Shown: positions 1,993-35,707 of the stretch, one piece after another
Layout: the number at the start of each line of letters is the position of its first letter
Position numbering within the stretch: the first letter of the stretch is position 1
Source of the DNA: a virus
Reading direction: 5' to 3' (one strand)
Virus record (IMG/VR): IMGVR_UViG_3300030102_003612
Coordinates: 1 to 37,174 of that record
Length of the DNA stretch: 37,174 nucleotides
Notes under the pieces: generated by a model
The model's input: the letters and a program-made list of their open reading frames with translations, nothing else
Database searches by the model: none
Told to the model about the DNA's origin: nothing
Program-made: the position numbers and the translations under genes

Positions 1993-2748
1993 ATGAGTCA
2001 GAATAGGAAAATAAAAGAAAGCTCGGGAGATGCTAGGGATGACGCTTTGGATGCGTTGTTTAAAGATTATCAGAACGAGCCCGTAACCATTACAAATCTA
2101 CCCTCCAAAGGTAAGTTTTATTCAGGATACCAGGGTATAGAGTTAAAGCCGTTGACCTTCCTTGATGAGCAGAAAATACTGAGTTCAAAAGGTGCGAACG
2201 TAGATATTGTCTCTAAGTTGTTAGAAAAGACAGTTGAGGGTGTGGATATTGAAGAACTTTTATCCATGGATAAAATGTTCCTCCTGATGAAGGTCCGTGA
2301 GCTTTCTTACGGTGATAAGTATGATTTCAATATTACTTGTCCAAATTGCACCTCTGAGATTCAAACATCTCTTAATTTATCTGAGAATTTAAATATGACT
2401 CAGGTGCCTGATGACCTGTCGGATCCCAGAGAAATTATGCTTCCGAGGCTGAAGGTAAAGGCTGAAGTGAGATTTCCTAGAAGCCGGGAGGAGGTTCTCC
2501 TGTCTAGTCCAGAGGAAGTTTACAAAAATATGTATAGGTTTGTGGTATCCGTTGATGATAATCCAGACCCGGTATTTATCTCTAAAGCCCTGAAAAGAAT
2601 GCACATTCAGGATGTAAAAACCATTATGGCCGAGCTAAACAAGGGCGAATACGGTGTGAACCCCCGATTCATCTTTGAGTGCCCAGAGTGCTCGCACACG
2701 GAGACCATGGCAATCCCGATGGATGTCAATTTTTTTTCAGTGAGCTAA
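1993..2748 (+). CDS. 26: gp26-like baseplate hub assembly protein (0-frame product)
   Basis: This 251-aa protein resembles the T4 gp26 baseplate family, which is needed to assemble the baseplate hub. It has a charged N-terminal tail (1-30), a conserved-looking block VTITNLPSKGKFY at 31-43 followed by LKPLTFLDEQ, and two Cys pairs, C116-PN-C119 and C230-PE-C233. The pairs could form one zinc ribbon interrupted by about 110 residues. It ends in PMDVNFFSVS. A GAGG ribosome site at 1983-1986 precedes the ATG. The last codons cross a run of eight T (2730-2737), which can shift ribosomes into the -1 frame and add 55 residues (separate entry). T4 is about 208 aa for gp26. Confidence is good for the family, with the precise role taken from T4. 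Confidence 0.82.
   Translation: MSQNRKIKESSGDARDDALDALFKDYQNEPVTITNLPSKGKFYSGYQGIELKPLTFLDEQKILSSKGANVDIVSKLLEKTVEGVDIEELLSMDKMFLLMKVRELSYGDKYDFNITCPNCTSEIQTSLNLSENLNMTQVPDDLSDPREIMLPRLKVKAEVRFPRSREEVLLSSPEEVYKNMYRFVVSVDDNPDPVFISKALKRMHIQDVKTIMAELNKGEYGVNPRFIFECPECSHTETMAIPMDVNFFSVS
2730..2736 (+). promoter_or_regulatory. Candidate -1 programmed ribosomal frameshift site (T TTT TTT)
   Basis: In the gp26 reading frame the codons here are AAT TTT TTT TCA. The heptamer T TTT TTT fits the X XXY YYZ rule for tandem -1 slippage exactly, inside an 8-T run at 2730-2737. The 0 frame stops ten bases downstream, at TAA 2746-2748. The -1 frame stays open to 2903. A small inverted repeat, ATCCT-CAG-AGGAT at 2759-2771, lies about 22 bases downstream; it may help, though that spacing is long for a stimulator. 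The site is inferred from sequence only. Confidence 0.6.
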
Positions 2749-2903
2749 CTAACAGTTTATCCTCAGAGGATCTTCTTTATCAAGCGTATATATTAGTAAA
2801 TAAGGTAGGCTTATCCTATTCGGACGTTAAATCCATGAACCAGAGAGAACGCTTATCCTTCATTAATTTTTATACAGAAGAATTAAAGAAGCTGGAGAGT
2901 TAG
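2736..2903 (+). CDS. Frameshift extension of gp26, gp51/tail-chaperone-like helical module
   Basis: These 55 codons follow in the -1 frame from the slippery site. They encode FSELTNSLSSEDLLYQAYIL onward, with YSDVKSM then RERLSFINFYTEELKKLE at the end. The segment is short, helical and charged. It recalls the small helical proteins, with a Glu-Arg then aromatic signature, that follow gp26-like genes in many contractile-tail loci; T4 places gene 51 directly after gene 26. The only in-frame initiator is a GTG at 2679, buried in the zinc-ribbon codons of gp26 with no clear ribosome site. Expression as a 303-aa gp26 fusion (248 + 55 residues) is therefore the simplest reading. The next gene starts two bases after its stop. 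Confidence 0.6.
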   Translation, partial: FSELTNSLSSEDLLYQAYILVNKVGLSYSDVKSMNQRERLSFINFYTEELKKLES

Positions 2904-2904
2904 C

Positions 2905-3849
2905 ATGAAAATCAACGGAAATCAAGTTACTACGCGGCACGAGAGGCCCACTGTCCAGGGTCCTACGGCCCTGTTATTATACTTCATAAATGATGGTCAA
3001 TACGCTGATCCTTATGATATCAGTGGAGTCTCCATTTTCGCAGCTTCGGACAATCAGTCCCCTAGCTCAGTCATTACTGCTGATGGGGAGATAAAAAGCA
3101 CGGCTTCGGATGATGTCCTCATGCACTTCTCTAATAGTGCAACCAGGACAACTAACGCCGCGTTTGACGCATCGAATTACAATGCTAACTCAGACTCGTC
3201 CGGTATCTACAAACTTTCGACGGGCAAGTTTGCATGTGTTTTAAATCAGGCCTCAGTTCTCCCTAGCGGTGTTTTCAACCTCTCGGGCACCAGTACAATC
3301 GCTAACAGAGTTTCTTCTACGGGGGACTATATTGACGTTTGGACAGTAAAGAGAGTTGCGGGATCTGACCTCGATACCATCATAAATGAGTTCACTTTGA
3401 CGGAGGATAGGTTCTTTGGTGTGACCGAGCCACTCCTCTTTAGGGTTGCCACTAGGCTTGAGAATAATTACTTGGTGCTTGGTTCAAAGGTAGATTTGAA
3501 GTTTACTAATGAGTTCACTCTTGAGAATGCAAATATTGATCGGAGTATCGTAAATCTATTTAAACAATCTCTGGTCACTGACCCTATGATTGAGATTTAC
3601 AAGAAAAATCAAGACAGGAATTTACCTGCAAGGGTTACCGTTTCTGGGTATTCAGACACCTCGGGTTACGCGGATACGACCTCCGAAAACACTGTTGTTC
3701 TCACATTCAACACTGAGGACTTAAAAACTCACTCGGAGTTACTCGCTGGTAACTTGGGGTCGGTGACTGGTACTTACGTTGCTAGGCTGAAATTTACAGC
3801 CTTGGACCAAACCATTGTATCAAATGATATGGCCTTTATTATACGCTAG
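2905..3849 (+). CDS. Virion-type structural protein, family not recognised
   Basis: This 314-aa protein has the Ser/Thr/Asn-rich, beta-strand-rich make-up of phage virion proteins. No catalytic motif, membrane segment or signal peptide is seen. The segment LLYFINDGQYADPYDISGV at 24-42 looks like a conserved N-terminal beta module, and ARLKFTALDQTIVSNDMAFIIR closes the protein. Its ATG follows the stop of the gp26 extension by one base, with GGAGAG at 2894-2899 as ribosome site, so it is in the gp26 operon. The 3' end overlaps the convergent primase gene by 30 bases. A baseplate or tail-associated role is inferred from operon position only. Confidence 0.7.
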   Translation: MKINGNQVTTRHERPTVQGPTALLLYFINDGQYADPYDISGVSIFAASDNQSPSSVITADGEIKSTASDDVLMHFSNSATRTTNAAFDASNYNANSDSSGIYKLSTGKFACVLNQASVLPSGVFNLSGTSTIANRVSSTGDYIDVWTVKRVAGSDLDTIINEFTLTEDRFFGVTEPLLFRVATRLENNYLVLGSKVDLKFTNEFTLENANIDRSIVNLFKQSLVTDPMIEIYKKNQDRNLPARVTVSGYSDTSGYADTTSENTVVLTFNTEDLKTHSELLAGNLGSVTGTYVARLKFTALDQTIVSNDMAFIIR

Positions 3850-4770
3850 ATACATTAAATGAAGTGCATCTAGCTTACCGATCTTCTCAGCCTCTGTTTT
3901 TAGGAAGTCTGAACCCTTCTTGACGAGCATCTCATTCCAGTCTTTGTAAGGAGTGGAGGGCACAACTGAGAAGAGATCATCTCTACGGATCCAGTGGGCA
4001 AGGTCCATAAACTTCTTTCGGCCCTTTGTACCTGCTTCATCATTATCAAATGCACACACGAGAGGACCGGTGTATTGGCTGAGTTGAAGGATTTGCTCAC
4101 GGCTTGTAAAGCAGCTTAGAGTCGTCGTAGCATTCAACCCTACCGCCTGTAGGCTAAGGCAATCAAAGACGCCCTCAGTGATGTATAGCGGCTCCTGAGA
4201 ACCATAATCAAAGGGGTATAGAACCTGAGAACTTTTGAGGTTCTTGCAGTTGAGATACTTGGGCTGCTCATCGCCAAGAGCCCTTGCTTGGAAGTAAAAA
4301 AGCTTACCGTTGCGATTAATAAACGGGATGATCAGTCTACCTCGATACTTGCCATCCGTAGCGATATAGAACTTAAACTGATCTACGCCACGAGACTGAA
4401 CAAAAGGATGATCCTCTACAACCTTAAAGTTATCAGCTTCATCAAGGTCAGATTCAATCTGATTTGGGTCAAACTCCTCGATAGGACGCCGACCCTTATA
4501 ACCAGCCATGAAGTCTTCAAAGACAAACTTCTCGTAGGCCTCACGGTAGCTGCACTTCTCTAGGATAGCGTAAAGCTTGAGAAAGTTCCCTACCTCGCCA
4601 GTCTTGAAGCATCTCCATAACCCAGTTTCAGTGTTAATGGACATGTGACGCTTATAGTCATTATCTACAAAGATAGATGGAACTACTAACTCAGTATCGT
4701 CGCTCTGAAGTCTATAATTAGACTGGAACTTGTTCAAGCAATACTTTCTAATGAAGGAATCAGAGCCCAT
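3820..4770 (-). CDS. 61: DNA primase, T4 gp61-like, with degenerate zinc-binding domain
   Basis: The 316-aa product matches T4 gp61 (342 aa) in size and order of parts. T4 gp61 makes RNA primers with the gp41 helicase. A TOPRIM core is clear: the Glu motif YITEG at 196-200, and the Asp motif FDNDEAG at 241-247. RGRLIIPFINRNGKLFYFQAR (144-163 region) and PYKDWNEML are also primase-like. The N-terminal zinc domain keeps its shape (HMSINTETGLWRCFKTGEVGNF at 42-63) but only one Cys (C54) of the four in T4 gp61. I chose the ATG at 4770, giving MGSDSFIRKY, because longer starts (4809, 4845) lie inside the divergent nuclease gene and add unlikely residues. No strong ribosome site precedes 4770. Confidence 0.85.
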   Translation of the reverse strand: MGSDSFIRKYCLNKFQSNYRLQSDDTELVVPSIFVDNDYKRHMSINTETGLWRCFKTGEVGNFLKLYAILEKCSYREAYEKFVFEDFMAGYKGRRPIEEFDPNQIESDLDEADNFKVVEDHPFVQSRGVDQFKFYIATDGKYRGRLIIPFINRNGKLFYFQARALGDEQPKYLNCKNLKSSQVLYPFDYGSQEPLYITEGVFDCLSLQAVGLNATTTLSCFTSREQILQLSQYTGPLVCAFDNDEAGTKGRKKFMDLAHWIRRDDLFSVVPSTPYKDWNEMLVKKGSDFLKTEAEKIGKLDALHLMYLAYNKGHII

Positions 4771-5557
4771 GTTTATAAATAGTATTAGTGCCTCTAAGAG
4801 TGACATCATAGACCAGTGCCTGTGGAAATACAGACTGAAATACATCTTGAAGCTGCCGGGATTCGGCTCGAAGAATGAGGATGCTTTGAACTTCGGATCT
4901 TTTATTCACAAGATATTTGAACTGGGCTACAAAGAGAGGGACATGAAGTCCTTGTTGAGAATTGCGGAACAAGAGCGTGCGACCTACAAGGTCCCCTTCC
5001 GTGATAATGATAGGATGAAGTCCTGTCTAGAAAACTTCATAATTTGGAATCAGGGTCTGGGCGAGACCATGTCCACTGAACAAGTTGTGAACGTCCCTAT
5101 GGATGAGAAACACGACATTAACTTTATAGGTGTCATTGACCGCGTTATCAAGGGGAGCGATGGAGGTTATCTTGTTGTTGACTACAAGACATCTAAGAGA
5201 GAGAAGAAGAAAAAGACTCTCATGGATGACAATCAATTAAAAGGATACGCTTGGGCTATCCACAAACTTTATGATGTGCCATACAATAAGATTTACTGCG
5301 CTCACTACTACCCGGTAACCGGTAACTTTGTTGCTGTAAAGTTTAGTAAGTTTCAGATCGATCGCTGGAAGAAGCAACAGATTGAAAAGGTATGGCGCAT
5401 TCGAAAAAAGAAGAAGGATGAGTTCTGGGCTCAGGAAAACATCTTCTGTGATTGGTGTGAATACAAAGATGCTTGCCCGAGGTTTAATTCAGAGTCTATT
5501 GTCTGTCAAAGAATTGACGAACAGAAAGAGCTTAAAAAGCAACTAAACAACAAATAA
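4769..5557 (+). CDS. PD-(D/E)XK nuclease with probable 4Fe-4S cluster (Cas4/RecB-like)
   Basis: The 262-aa protein carries the RecB-family motif set: GSFIH with H47, GVIDR with D124, VVDYKTSK with D138 and K140, and QLKGYAW with Q156 and Y160. These form the metal and active site of single-strand DNA exonucleases of this family. One N-terminal Cys (C17, in IIDQCLWKYRL) and a C-terminal cluster C227-x2-C230-x5-C236 match the four-Cys 4Fe-4S pattern of Cas4 and AddB. AAGGA at 4754-4758 supports the ATG at 4769 rather than 4730. It diverges from the primase gene and is the only plus-strand replication-type gene here. A DNA end-processing role in recombination is inferred. No CRISPR genes are nearby, so a CRISPR role is not supported. 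Confidence 0.85.
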   Translation: MFINSISASKSDIIDQCLWKYRLKYILKLPGFGSKNEDALNFGSFIHKIFELGYKERDMKSLLRIAEQERATYKVPFRDNDRMKSCLENFIIWNQGLGETMSTEQVVNVPMDEKHDINFIGVIDRVIKGSDGGYLVVDYKTSKREKKKKTLMDDNQLKGYAWAIHKLYDVPYNKIYCAHYYPVTGNFVAVKFSKFQIDRWKKQQIEKVWRIRKKKKDEFWAQENIFCDWCEYKDACPRFNSESIVCQRIDEQKELKKQLNNK

Positions 5558-6476: not shown

Positions 6477-8118
6477 TCCTAATAATAATGCGGCAGATAG
6501 GTTCGTAACGGATCTTCTGAACCAACAAAGTGAGCTTATTGTCCAGCAGACAAGGGCGACAAGGGATCTTAATGGTAGTATACTCCAGGCTAGTCGAGAA
6601 CTAGGCACAAGATTCGCCGCTTTTGTAAACCCGTTAAAGAGATTTGAAGACTCCCTGATGAGGTTGGATCAGACCAATCGAAGAGCACTTCAAATGGGTG
6701 TCACTACTCAAAAGCTCCGAGATGCAGTATCCAAAAACTCAGATGTAATTAATCGAGGCAGGGTAAGCAATCAAAAGCTTATAGACGCGATCCAACAGAA
6801 CTTTGGGGAGGGTGTTAGAACACAGAACGAGTCCATGTTGAATCTCACTGAGGAGATGATTGCTACTGGGCAAAATACTGCTGGGCTAACTCAGATGAAC
6901 TCTGATCTCTTACTTTTTACTGGAGATAACATTAAAGCTCTGGATAGGGCTAATAAGGCAAATAAGCAAATTAGTGACAAGTACGGTGTCACCAATGAAA
7001 AGTTAATCAACTCGGTTAATTCCCTTAGAGATACATTTGAACAAGCGTCCTTCTTTGGACCAGACACAACAGCCTCCCTCACCGAGTTATCACAAGAGTT
7101 AAAGGCCAGGACTGGCGGAAAAGCTGTTGAAGGTTCGATAAGGACCTTGTTCAGCTTATTCACTGGAGGTATGGATACCTTAGACCCGGCTATGCGATTG
7201 GGCGCTGATAGGTCTTTACTGGGCGGTGAGATTGGGATGGGGGATGTTACTGGTGTCCTTCAGCGTCTGGCAGACATAGCAGACCAATCGGGTGGAGGTA
7301 ACCTTGGGCTGGGGGCAGATATTGCTGCCATGAGAACTGGGTTACAGAAACAGCAAGTAAATCAATTACTGGCGCTCCACGAACAGCTTAAACAGAATTA
7401 TGAGTTAGACTCCAATGTTGCGGCTACCGAAGATGACAGATTCAATAGTCTTCAAAACATAAATGACAGGGCTCGTAATTTCTATGACAATACCGCAATA
7501 GAATCGCTTGGTGTTTTAGGTAAGATTGATACAAATTTACTGATACTTGGTTCCAATATGGCGATGACCTTTGGTATTCTAAAAGGATTCATGCCAACTG
7601 CTGGGGGAGGAGCAGGCATTGGCGCAGGCATTGGCGGTCGTATGGGAATGATTGGCTCGTTCCTTAAGGGCCGTGGTGGTGGAGCATTACTCGCTGGTGG
7701 TGGTGCCGCCCTCCTTGCAGGCACTGATAATAATGAGGCGGGAACGACAGGGGGGTTCCTCTCTAATATTCTTACTGGAGCCTCCATGGGAGCGATGGGA
7801 GGTGGTCTTATAGGTGCCGGTATAGGGGCGGTAGGAGGCCTCGTTTACTCGTTCTTTGAGGATACCGCTGACGCCTCAAAGAAGACCGCTGAGAATACCG
7901 GGGAGCAACTTAAGATAGCACAACAGCAACAACGTGAAGAACAACGCCGCCGCGCAGCATTAGAGGTTGAGAGAGTAAGTGTGCTCGCAAACTATGTTAG
8001 ATCACGCTTAGACCCACGAGTTGGCGCTGAGACAGTCAGACTACTTTCTCAGCAAGTTCAAAGTCTTGAGCGAATGCGTAAAGAAAACAATAGGAACGGA
8101 ACAACGGTAACTAGGTAA
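6469..8118 (+). CDS. Candidate tape measure protein (gp29-like position and architecture)
   Basis: The 549-aa protein starts with GTG at 6469, inside the end of the previous gene. Residues 1-190 are rich in Gln, Asn and Leu with coiled-coil character. A central helical part follows (190-350). A Gly-rich hydrophobic stretch spans about 365-465 (GAGIGAGIGGRMG; GGGALLAGGGAALLAG; GGGLIGAGIGAVGGLVYSFF). A basic/Gln-rich helix closes it (QQQQREEQRRRAALEVERV). Helical length plus membrane-like Gly/Ala segments is the hallmark of tape measures. T4 gp29 is 590 aa and occupies the same kind of place between hub assembly and tube initiator genes. At about 1.5 angstroms per residue it would span near 80 nm. 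No sequence match to gp29 was made. Confidence 0.6.
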   Translation: MVDPNNNAADRFVTDLLNQQSELIVQQTRATRDLNGSILQASRELGTRFAAFVNPLKRFEDSLMRLDQTNRRALQMGVTTQKLRDAVSKNSDVINRGRVSNQKLIDAIQQNFGEGVRTQNESMLNLTEEMIATGQNTAGLTQMNSDLLLFTGDNIKALDRANKANKQISDKYGVTNEKLINSVNSLRDTFEQASFFGPDTTASLTELSQELKARTGGKAVEGSIRTLFSLFTGGMDTLDPAMRLGADRSLLGGEIGMGDVTGVLQRLADIADQSGGGNLGLGADIAAMRTGLQKQQVNQLLALHEQLKQNYELDSNVAATEDDRFNSLQNINDRARNFYDNTAIESLGVLGKIDTNLLILGSNMAMTFGILKGFMPTAGGGAGIGAGIGGRMGMIGSFLKGRGGGALLAGGGAALLAGTDNNEAGTTGGFLSNILTGASMGAMGGGLIGAGIGAVGGLVYSFFEDTADASKKTAENTGEQLKIAQQQQREEQRRRAALEVERVSVLANYVRSRLDPRVGAETVRLLSQQVQSLERMRKENNRNGTTVTR

Positions 8119-34210: not shown

Positions 34211-35707
34211 ATGTTACTCGTCGAGTGCAATGTTTTAGAAAAGGTAGAAGTTATCAATGAAGGCAAAGAGGGTAACACTCGCCTTCGCCTGAGAGGTAAA
34301 TTCCAACAGTGCGACGAGCAGAACAACAATGGTAGAATCTACCCTCGTAAGATTCTGGAGGCTCAAGTTCAAGCTATTCAGGAGAAGATTGGTGATCGTT
34401 CTTTAGTTGGTGCTCTCGACCACCCAGCTAACGATGCCATTCACCTTTCACAAGCGTCCCACCTTATCACTGGGCTGAGTGTTGGTAAGGACGGCTCCGT
34501 GATTGGTGAGTGTGAGATTCTTTCGACCCCTAACGGTAAAATCGTTGAAGCTCTTATTAATGACGGTGTAAAGATTGGCATCTCCAGCCGTGGTGTTGGC
34601 AGTGTTACGGAAGGCATCAAAGGTAAGATCGTCAACGAAGATTTTAAACTTATTACGTTTGATCTTGTATCAGATCCTTCGACAAGAGGCGCTTTCCCTG
34701 AGCTTTCGGAGTCGATGCGTGAAAATAGTGAGCGTGCTCAAGCCATCGTTTCTAAGCACAAGAAAGATCGAGTTCTACTCACCATGCTTGAGAGTAAAAT
34801 TAGTGAGGCCTTAAAGGGCAAGCAAAAGAAGCTTGATAAGAATAAGAACAACAAGATCGATGCGGAAGACTTCGAGATGCTTAGGGGTGAGAAGAAAAGC
34901 ATGGGTGAGAAAACATTCCCTGATCTAAGTGGTGACGGCAAAGTCACTAAGAAAGACATTCTTATTGGTAGGGGTGTCATCAAGGGCAAGAAGAAGGGCA
35001 AGAAAGTTGAAGAAGGTGAGGATAACGATCCTTTATACTTAAAGCTTTTAGCTGGTCAAAGGCCTGCGGGCACTAAGAAACCGAAACCGAAACCGAAGAA
35101 AGTTTATGAGGGCGAGGTCAAACAAAAGAACAAAGCGAGGATGAGGAGTGCGTTAGCGAAACTCGGTGCTGGGGCATTAGCCAAGGAGAAAACCTTCACG
35201 CCTGCTGAAAGAGCCGGGTCGTATGAAACCTACCGCAAGAGCGGTGGAAAAGAGCAAACCGGCAATGTCGTTGGCAAAGGTCGAGCAAAGTTACGTAAGA
35301 AGTTTGGCTCTGCTAATGAAGCTGTCATTGAGGGCTTGAAAAAGATTTGCTGGGGTAACCACTACAATGAGGCAACGAGATTGAGAAAAATGAGTAAGGG
35401 TACACCCGAAGAACAAAAGCGTGCCCGCCAGGAAGGTGCTGAAACGGCTCGTAGGGTAGGGTCACATAGAAAAATTAGTCGTGCGCTTAAGAAGGGTAAA
35501 GAAGTTACCGACTCACGTTTCGCCAAACAAGTCGTTGAGGGTAAAATCAAGAATGACCCAGAGGCTTTCAAAAGAGCCAAGAAATCATACGTCCAACGAG
35601 ATCAAGAAAGGCAGGCGAGACTTCAGCAAGTCATAGCTGATAATGAAAGACGACGCATCGCTGCCGGTGGTGCTGGTCGAGATCAATCCAAGCCTAAAAA
35701 GAAATAA
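34211..35707 (+). CDS. 21: Prohead protease, gp21-like, with EF-hand-like loops and basic tail
   Basis: The first 190 residues resemble T4 gp21, the serine protease that cleaves the prohead core and capsid precursors. Landmarks are NNNGRIYPRKILE (38-50), VGALDHP with H71, and GISSRGVGS with S125/S126, the likely catalytic His and Ser. T4 gp21 is 212 aa; this protein is 498. After the protease lies ISE-A (197-200), a fitting self-cleavage site, then two EF-hand-like loops, DKNKNNKIDAED (209-220) and DLSGDGKVTKKD (238-249), then about 240 residues rich in Lys/Arg with Lys-Pro repeats (KPKPKPKK). The tail may be released as DNA-binding peptides. AGGA at 34201-34204 supports the start. Confidence 0.82.
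   Translation: MLLVECNVLEKVEVINEGKEGNTRLRLRGKFQQCDEQNNNGRIYPRKILEAQVQAIQEKIGDRSLVGALDHPANDAIHLSQASHLITGLSVGKDGSVIGECEILSTPNGKIVEALINDGVKIGISSRGVGSVTEGIKGKIVNEDFKLITFDLVSDPSTRGAFPELSESMRENSERAQAIVSKHKKDRVLLTMLESKISEALKGKQKKLDKNKNNKIDAEDFEMLRGEKKSMGEKTFPDLSGDGKVTKKDILIGRGVIKGKKKGKKVEEGEDNDPLYLKLLAGQRPAGTKKPKPKPKKVYEGEVKQKNKARMRSALAKLGAGALAKEKTFTPAERAGSYETYRKSGGKEQTGNVVGKGRAKLRKKFGSANEAVIEGLKKICWGNHYNEATRLRKMSKGTPEEQKRARQEGAETARRVGSHRKISRALKKGKEVTDSRFAKQVVEGKIKNDPEAFKRAKKSYVQRDQERQARLQQVIADNERRRIAAGGAGRDQSKPKKK

Follow-up and report, generated by a model that had tools for sequence, protein, structure and literature searches.

In phage lambda the tail assembly chaperones gpG and gpGT are a pair of short and long forms; a single gene yields both through a −1 shift close to its 3′ end, and the tail of the long form recruits the tube subunits (PMC5009743). 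The hub assembly chaperones listed for phage T4 include gp26 and gp51 (PMC3004832). The gp26 and gp51 forms are encoded by separate, divergent genes in T4 and in 44RR. Such frameshifting is familiar from other phages, and for the T4-like ones it has apparently been reported already: Vladimirov et al. 2022 is the work that PMC10885494 and PMC12846349 cite for frameshifting in T4-like chaperone genes, and both the gp26/gp51-type chaperones and the poly-T signals of T4-like phages are cited as published. According to PMC10885494, some T4-like phages do without a frameshift and carry two genes, one short and the other a longer fusion. Furthermore, the tail assembly chaperone (TAC) gene of the Vandenendeviridae and Andersonviridae, described for phage Adele, contains a poly-T −1 shift that is conserved, and its −1 frame is open in every genome (PMC12846349).

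Here we describe a locus of this kind in a stretch of viral DNA of 37,174 nucleotides (IMG/VR record IMGVR_UViG_3300030102_003612, hereafter the window), which comes from an uncultured T4-like phage, probably a marine one. An initial annotation, made from the letters of the window, had suggested that a −1 programmed frameshift probably fuses gp26 with a gp51/chaperone-like module, which, if real, would link gp26/gp51 to the frameshifting theme; the novelty of that link is lost to the 2022 work cited in the two papers above. The comparisons reported below indicate that the locus is very probably a TAC gene of the T4 superfamily, whose short and long forms would be made by a −1 ribosomal slip on T TTT TTT. 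It would share with lambda gpG/gpGT the production of both forms from one gene by a −1 shift near the 3′ end, but its N-terminal protein is longer and belongs to PF12322 and its slippery sequence is T TTT TTT; the two are likened here by arrangement. The TAC gene of phage Adele resembles it in coming from contractile-tailed phages and in its poly-T −1 shift, whereas the Adele motif is GTTTTT.

Results and discussion

Organization of the junction

The features of the locus are collected in Table 1. The T run is made of eight Ts (2730-2737), and the 0 frame reads through it as AAT (2728), TTT (2731), TTT (2734), TCA, GTG, AGC and TAA. Both the phased heptamer and the stop that follows it had been placed correctly to the base in the initial annotation. 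The −1 frame, open from position 2679 and closed by a stop at 2901-2903, has the length originally assigned to it, and the product lengths given there agree with translation: 251 aa for the unshifted frame and, for a tandem slip, a predicted 248 + 55 = 303 aa. The ATG of the next gene (2905) lies one base after the −1 stop, and a GGAG stretch resembling a ribosome site for that gene is found within the end of the module (2893-2904); this stretch may be the cause of the invariance of the last module codons. Among the roughly 12,000 codons of the window, two phased copies of T TTT TTT are present, so that in a single genome the heptamer is weak evidence and its conservation decides.

Table 1. 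Positions of the features of the gp26-like locus in the window
Feature	Position	Strand	Basis or remarks
gp26-like 0-frame gene, short tail assembly chaperone form (putative)	1993..2748	+	251 aa, PF12322, phrog_150
Slippery heptamer T TTT TTT, phased in the 0 frame	2730..2736	+	sequence; 34/34 relatives
Near-invariant 20-mer TTTTTTTTCAGTGAGCTAAC	2730..2749	+	coding in both frames; contains the 0-frame stop
0-frame stop TAA	2746..2748	+	ten bases past the heptamer
−1 frame extension, 55 codons and stop	2736..2903	+	corresponds to the gp51 C-terminal module; would complete the 303-aa long form
Stretch with reduced synonymous variation, −1 codons 7-24	2751..2804	+	after the overlap; possible cis-acting element

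Conservation of the proposed slip site

Relatives were collected with peptide patterns taken from the upstream gp26-like protein that do not touch the junction. Thirty-six IMG/VR viral loci were obtained in this way, 34 of which reach the junction. TTTTTTTTCAGTGAGCTAA is kept in every one of these 34 (59-80% identical), and TTT TTT TCA GTG AGC TAA appears in all of them in the same phase and with the same order of frames, the pattern that the initial annotation had named as support if found in related phages. The 34 junction-spanning loci and the window reduce to 24 distinct sequences at 2%; the 20-mer is invariant among them, and the T run has exactly eight Ts throughout. When the module was used as the query, 42 loci were found, 41 with the full 20-mer and one differing from it at a single base outside the T run. 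A search with the exact 20-mer gave 54 viral contigs, all with a long 0 frame upstream and the −1 module downstream, the module being diverged in 13 of them; since these loci were selected on the 20-mer, they show its spread and context rather than its conservation.

The codon that precedes TTT TTT was analyzed in 43 distinct loci. The residue encoded is G, S, N, D, T or H, and the codon ends in T in all cases; in the upstream sequence the T-ending share of the codons for these residues ranges from 19% (Gly) to 69% (Asp). Seven codons are used at this position in the set of 43, and five (AAT, AGT, TCT, GGT and ACT) in the 24 distinct sequences, which were found without use of the T run and follow the same always-T pattern. 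An invariant T before TTT TTT is the requirement of the X position in X XXY YYZ for a tandem slip.

Homopolymer runs are prone to indel errors, and the initial annotation had itself raised an error in the T count that would hide one continuous gene. The same run of eight Ts, however, is found in the 54 contigs, which were separately assembled, and a sequencing error is consequently ruled out. The wider form of this reading, in which an assembly error or a decayed gene end would leave one continuous gene or no module, is hardly credible either, given that the 0-frame stop is conserved and the module is under purifying selection.

Coding evidence and start codons in the −1 module

Variability at the three −1 codon positions of the module is 0.09/0.04/0.26, and dN/dS is about 0.10. 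These values show that the module is under purifying selection and is selected as a protein. The other two forward frames contain stops across the module, and conservation begins with its first codons. Phased T run and constrained −1 module together support, on sequence grounds, the programmed −1 frameshift that had been proposed.

After the slip, the first −1-frame ATG of the window is at 2835, 35 codons in, and in 34 of 42 loci there is no ATG, GTG or TTG between the upstream stop of the −1 frame and 20 codons past the slip. A GTG at 2679, upstream of the slip, was considered as a module start and rejected, as it is not conserved in the relatives. A separate start for the module is therefore not a general option, and where the module has no start codon the only evident way of translating it is a frameshift or the transcriptional counterpart of one.

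Relationship to T4 gp26 and gp51

The 0-frame protein matches PF12322 in Pfam (E 3e-17; 63.5 bits, with a cut-off of 24.5) and the baseplate hub family phrog_150 in PHROGs (E 7e-20). These matches firmly identify it as a homologue of T4 gp26, the name already given to it in the initial annotation. PF12322 matches two T4 genes, gp26 and gp51, and in gp51 the match covers the first 201 residues, which are followed by about 48 more. In profile comparisons, T4-type gp26 and gp51 match each other with an E of 5e-19, the frameshift fusions of other T4-like phages match gp51 over its whole length (E 1.2e-20), and the fusion of the window clade matches those other fusions from the N-terminal part through the module (E 2.6e-14). 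The module of the window clade alone matches the T4 gp51 tail in the same register (E 2e-4), whereas five column-shuffled module controls gave an E of about 0.1 or worse. The direct full-length match between the window clade and gp51 is weak (E 0.016), and the link between them consequently rests on the chain through the other T4-like phages. The distant homologues taken together gave a profile too diverse for scanning.

By these profile comparisons the −1 module corresponds to the C-terminal tail of T4 gp51, that is, its last 48-55 residues or so, and gp26 and gp51 are paralogues, the short and long forms of one tail assembly chaperone pair. The gp51/chaperone-like module of the initial annotation thus holds in a more precise form, as the gp51 tail, the N-terminal 200 residues or so of gp51 being gp26-like. 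T4 gp26 is homologous to the 0-frame protein and T4 gp51 to the long form (about 200 gp26-like residues plus the tail), but T4 has two separate and divergently transcribed genes for them, whereas in the window there is one gene with a predicted −1 shift.

The same locus in other phages

Thirteen other T4-like phages were inspected. In 12 of them (P-SSM2, S-SM2, S-BM1, S-SM1, S-N03, Melnitz, Astolliot, ACP17, Aeh1, VH7D, LG08 and AS-yj) gp26 closes with a phased T TTT TTC or T TTT TTT, and a module of the same kind follows in the −1 frame; the exception, Vibrio phage D533, has a TAATG stop-start overlap. The view that T4-like phages have separate genes 26 and 51 was consequently right for the T-even phages and wrong for most of the other T4-like phages examined, where the gp51-like tail lies in the −1 frame. 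In the stretches examined, this module is unannotated in Aeromonas phages AS-yj (3381-3569) and Aeh1 (after 2217) and in Vibrio phage VH7D (after 2331).

The arrangement was analyzed further in the viral loci of P-SSM2 type. T TTT TTC stands one codon before the stop in 68/68 distinct loci, and a Shine-Dalgarno-like GAGGG is found upstream of nearly all slip sites. A stem-loop of 11 pairs begins 5 nt after the heptamer, with a mean of −13.1 kcal/mol and, in five examples, z values of about −4 to −6 against mononucleotide shuffles; most of its pairs are present in 34-36 of 36 distinct stretches, and the two weakest in 28 and 21. The GAGGG and the predicted stem-loop are the classical marks of −1 frameshifting. 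There is also a conserved ATG three codons after the slip, which makes two routes to the module possible in this type. In this type the cassette lies at the gp26 end (7180-7240 of one stretch examined), and in P-SSM2 the module is annotated as a separate gene, gp51. Cyanophages of P-SSM2 type and the window clade share the in-phase T run at the end of gp26 and the gp51-like module in the −1 frame; they differ in that the window clade has T TTT TTT and is without the GAGGG, the stem-loop and the nearby ATG.

Two further arrangements were observed. The TAATG overlap joins the two modules in jumbo phage LR756511 (~3784-3790) and in D533 (~2221-2225 of the stretches examined), where the same protein pair could consequently come from coupled genes. 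The gp26-like gene of SP-15, LIS04 and Streptococcus phage GXN1 is followed by a second module in the +1 frame (4590-4913, 4575-4883 and 4635-5003 of the stretches examined, listed in order), and so is that of one IMG/VR contig. In SP-15 and LIS04 the conserved sequence begins before the first suitable start past the 0-frame stop, and the pattern suggests a +1 (or −2) frameshift near a conserved CC [CA]GA TT[CT].

The TAATG overlaps at this same junction in LR756511 and D533, as well as the ATG past the slip and the gp51 annotation in the P-SSM2 type, might be taken to mean that the module is in general a separate small gene, translated from its own start or by coupling after the 0-frame stop, with the T run incidental. 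We consider this very improbable for the window clade, because the module is conserved from its first codons in a clade where 34/42 loci have no ATG, GTG or TTG, and because the invariance of the T run would have no reason. Homologues with their own start and no slippery run, which the initial annotation had regarded as evidence against its proposal, are not what the relatives present, since their downstream frame is usually without a start.

Search for a stimulator and transcriptional slippage

No convincing conserved stimulatory RNA structure was found in the window clade by RNAalifold, by single-sequence folds with shuffles or by a conserved-helix search. The helix search, through which alone pseudoknots were screened, gave no conserved helix of at least 6 pairs in this clade, and the z-score of the window is about 0. 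A Shine-Dalgarno-like element was likewise not found in the window clade. Two candidates were set aside: a 5-bp TCAGT/ACTGA stem adjoining the slip is present in some relatives only, and an AAGC...GCTT hairpin lies about 46 nt downstream, far for that role.

Synonymous variation is reduced after the overlap. The median ratio of observed to expected variation is 0.56 over about 18 codons, compared with 0.79 in the remaining module (p 3e-4; Mann-Whitney, −1 codons 7-24 against 25-54) and 0.92 upstream (p 5e-7), in a test whose codon columns are partly dependent on one another and whose loci were in part selected through the 20-mer. A smaller locus set shows the same pattern of reduction, and more strongly. 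Furthermore, across 44 distinct loci the codons TTA, CAA, ATA and GTA at −1 positions 9, 17, 20 and 22 are never replaced by a synonym. This conserved stretch of about 18 codons might be a new kind of stimulator that replaces the hairpin and the Shine-Dalgarno-like signal of the P-SSM2 type, an idea that we regard as unlikely.

The main rival to a ribosomal slip is slippage of RNA polymerase on the T run, by which one U would be added and part of the mRNA would encode the fusion in one frame. In its favour, the run never departs from eight Ts among the 24 distinct sequences, transcriptional slippage in bacteria may be possible on a run of that length, and no 3′ RNA structure was found in the window clade. 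However, the homologous site of the P-SSM2 type has six Ts followed by C in 68/68 loci, with a hairpin and GAGGG, which makes transcriptional slippage less likely, and one mechanism across the family is simpler. We therefore attribute a small probability to slippage of the polymerase and retain a −1 slip of the ribosome as the preferred reading.

Predicted structure, gene neighbourhood and proposed mechanism

A Foldseek search against the PDB gave nothing significant by E-value. The two best solved matches of the modelled N-terminal domain were YqbN (3klu, Z 4.3), which we take to be a prophage tail chaperone, and the HK97 tail assembly chaperone (2ob9, Z 4.0); these matches to the TAC fold are weak (Z about 4), concern the N-terminal domain only and surfaced only on realignment. 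Structure prediction gives the module four helices, two of them short. Its own structural matches were generic small helical domains and were set aside.

The gene neighbourhood was also analyzed. The LIS04 homologue lies between the tail tube and the tape measure, the usual position of the chaperone, and the SP-15 homologue is flanked by the tail tube and by a putative tail protein of large size. Profile searches with PHROGs and Pfam identified no tape measure gene in the window, and most of the neighbouring genes, where tape measure and hub genes were looked for, gave no match to either collection. The 37-kb virus record contains T4-like baseplate wedge genes (phrog_261/43 and phrog_219) and, on the other strand, a DNA helicase of the phrog_16 family. 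The product of 34211-35707 looks by eye like a putative T4 gp21-like prohead protease with a long basic tail.

The proposed mechanism is as follows. Most ribosomes would read the 0 frame to its stop and make the short form, the equivalent of gp26. In a minority, the two tRNA-Phe on the heptamer would slip simultaneously backward by one base; these ribosomes would bypass the stop and make the long form, the equivalent of gp51, which ends in the small helical module. If the two forms act as lambda gpG and gpGT do, the tape measure protein would be bound through the N-terminal part that they share, and tube subunits would be recruited through the additional module of the long form, both forms then leaving. 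The ribosomal nature of the slippage, its rate and the chaperone roles are what we infer for this locus.

Conclusions

The window clade is, in its sequence, a variant of the reported T4-like arrangement, with T TTT TTT, no visible stimulator and no alternative start. It extends the theme of frameshifting tail chaperones to an uncultured T4-like lineage and, as its module is without a start codon, provides a clean example. Together with the wider survey it suggests that most of the T4 superfamily may use a single frameshifted gene, with separate gp26 and gp51 genes as a special case, and the locus explains why 'gp51' goes unnoticed in many T4-like phages or appears in their annotation as a very small gene of its own.
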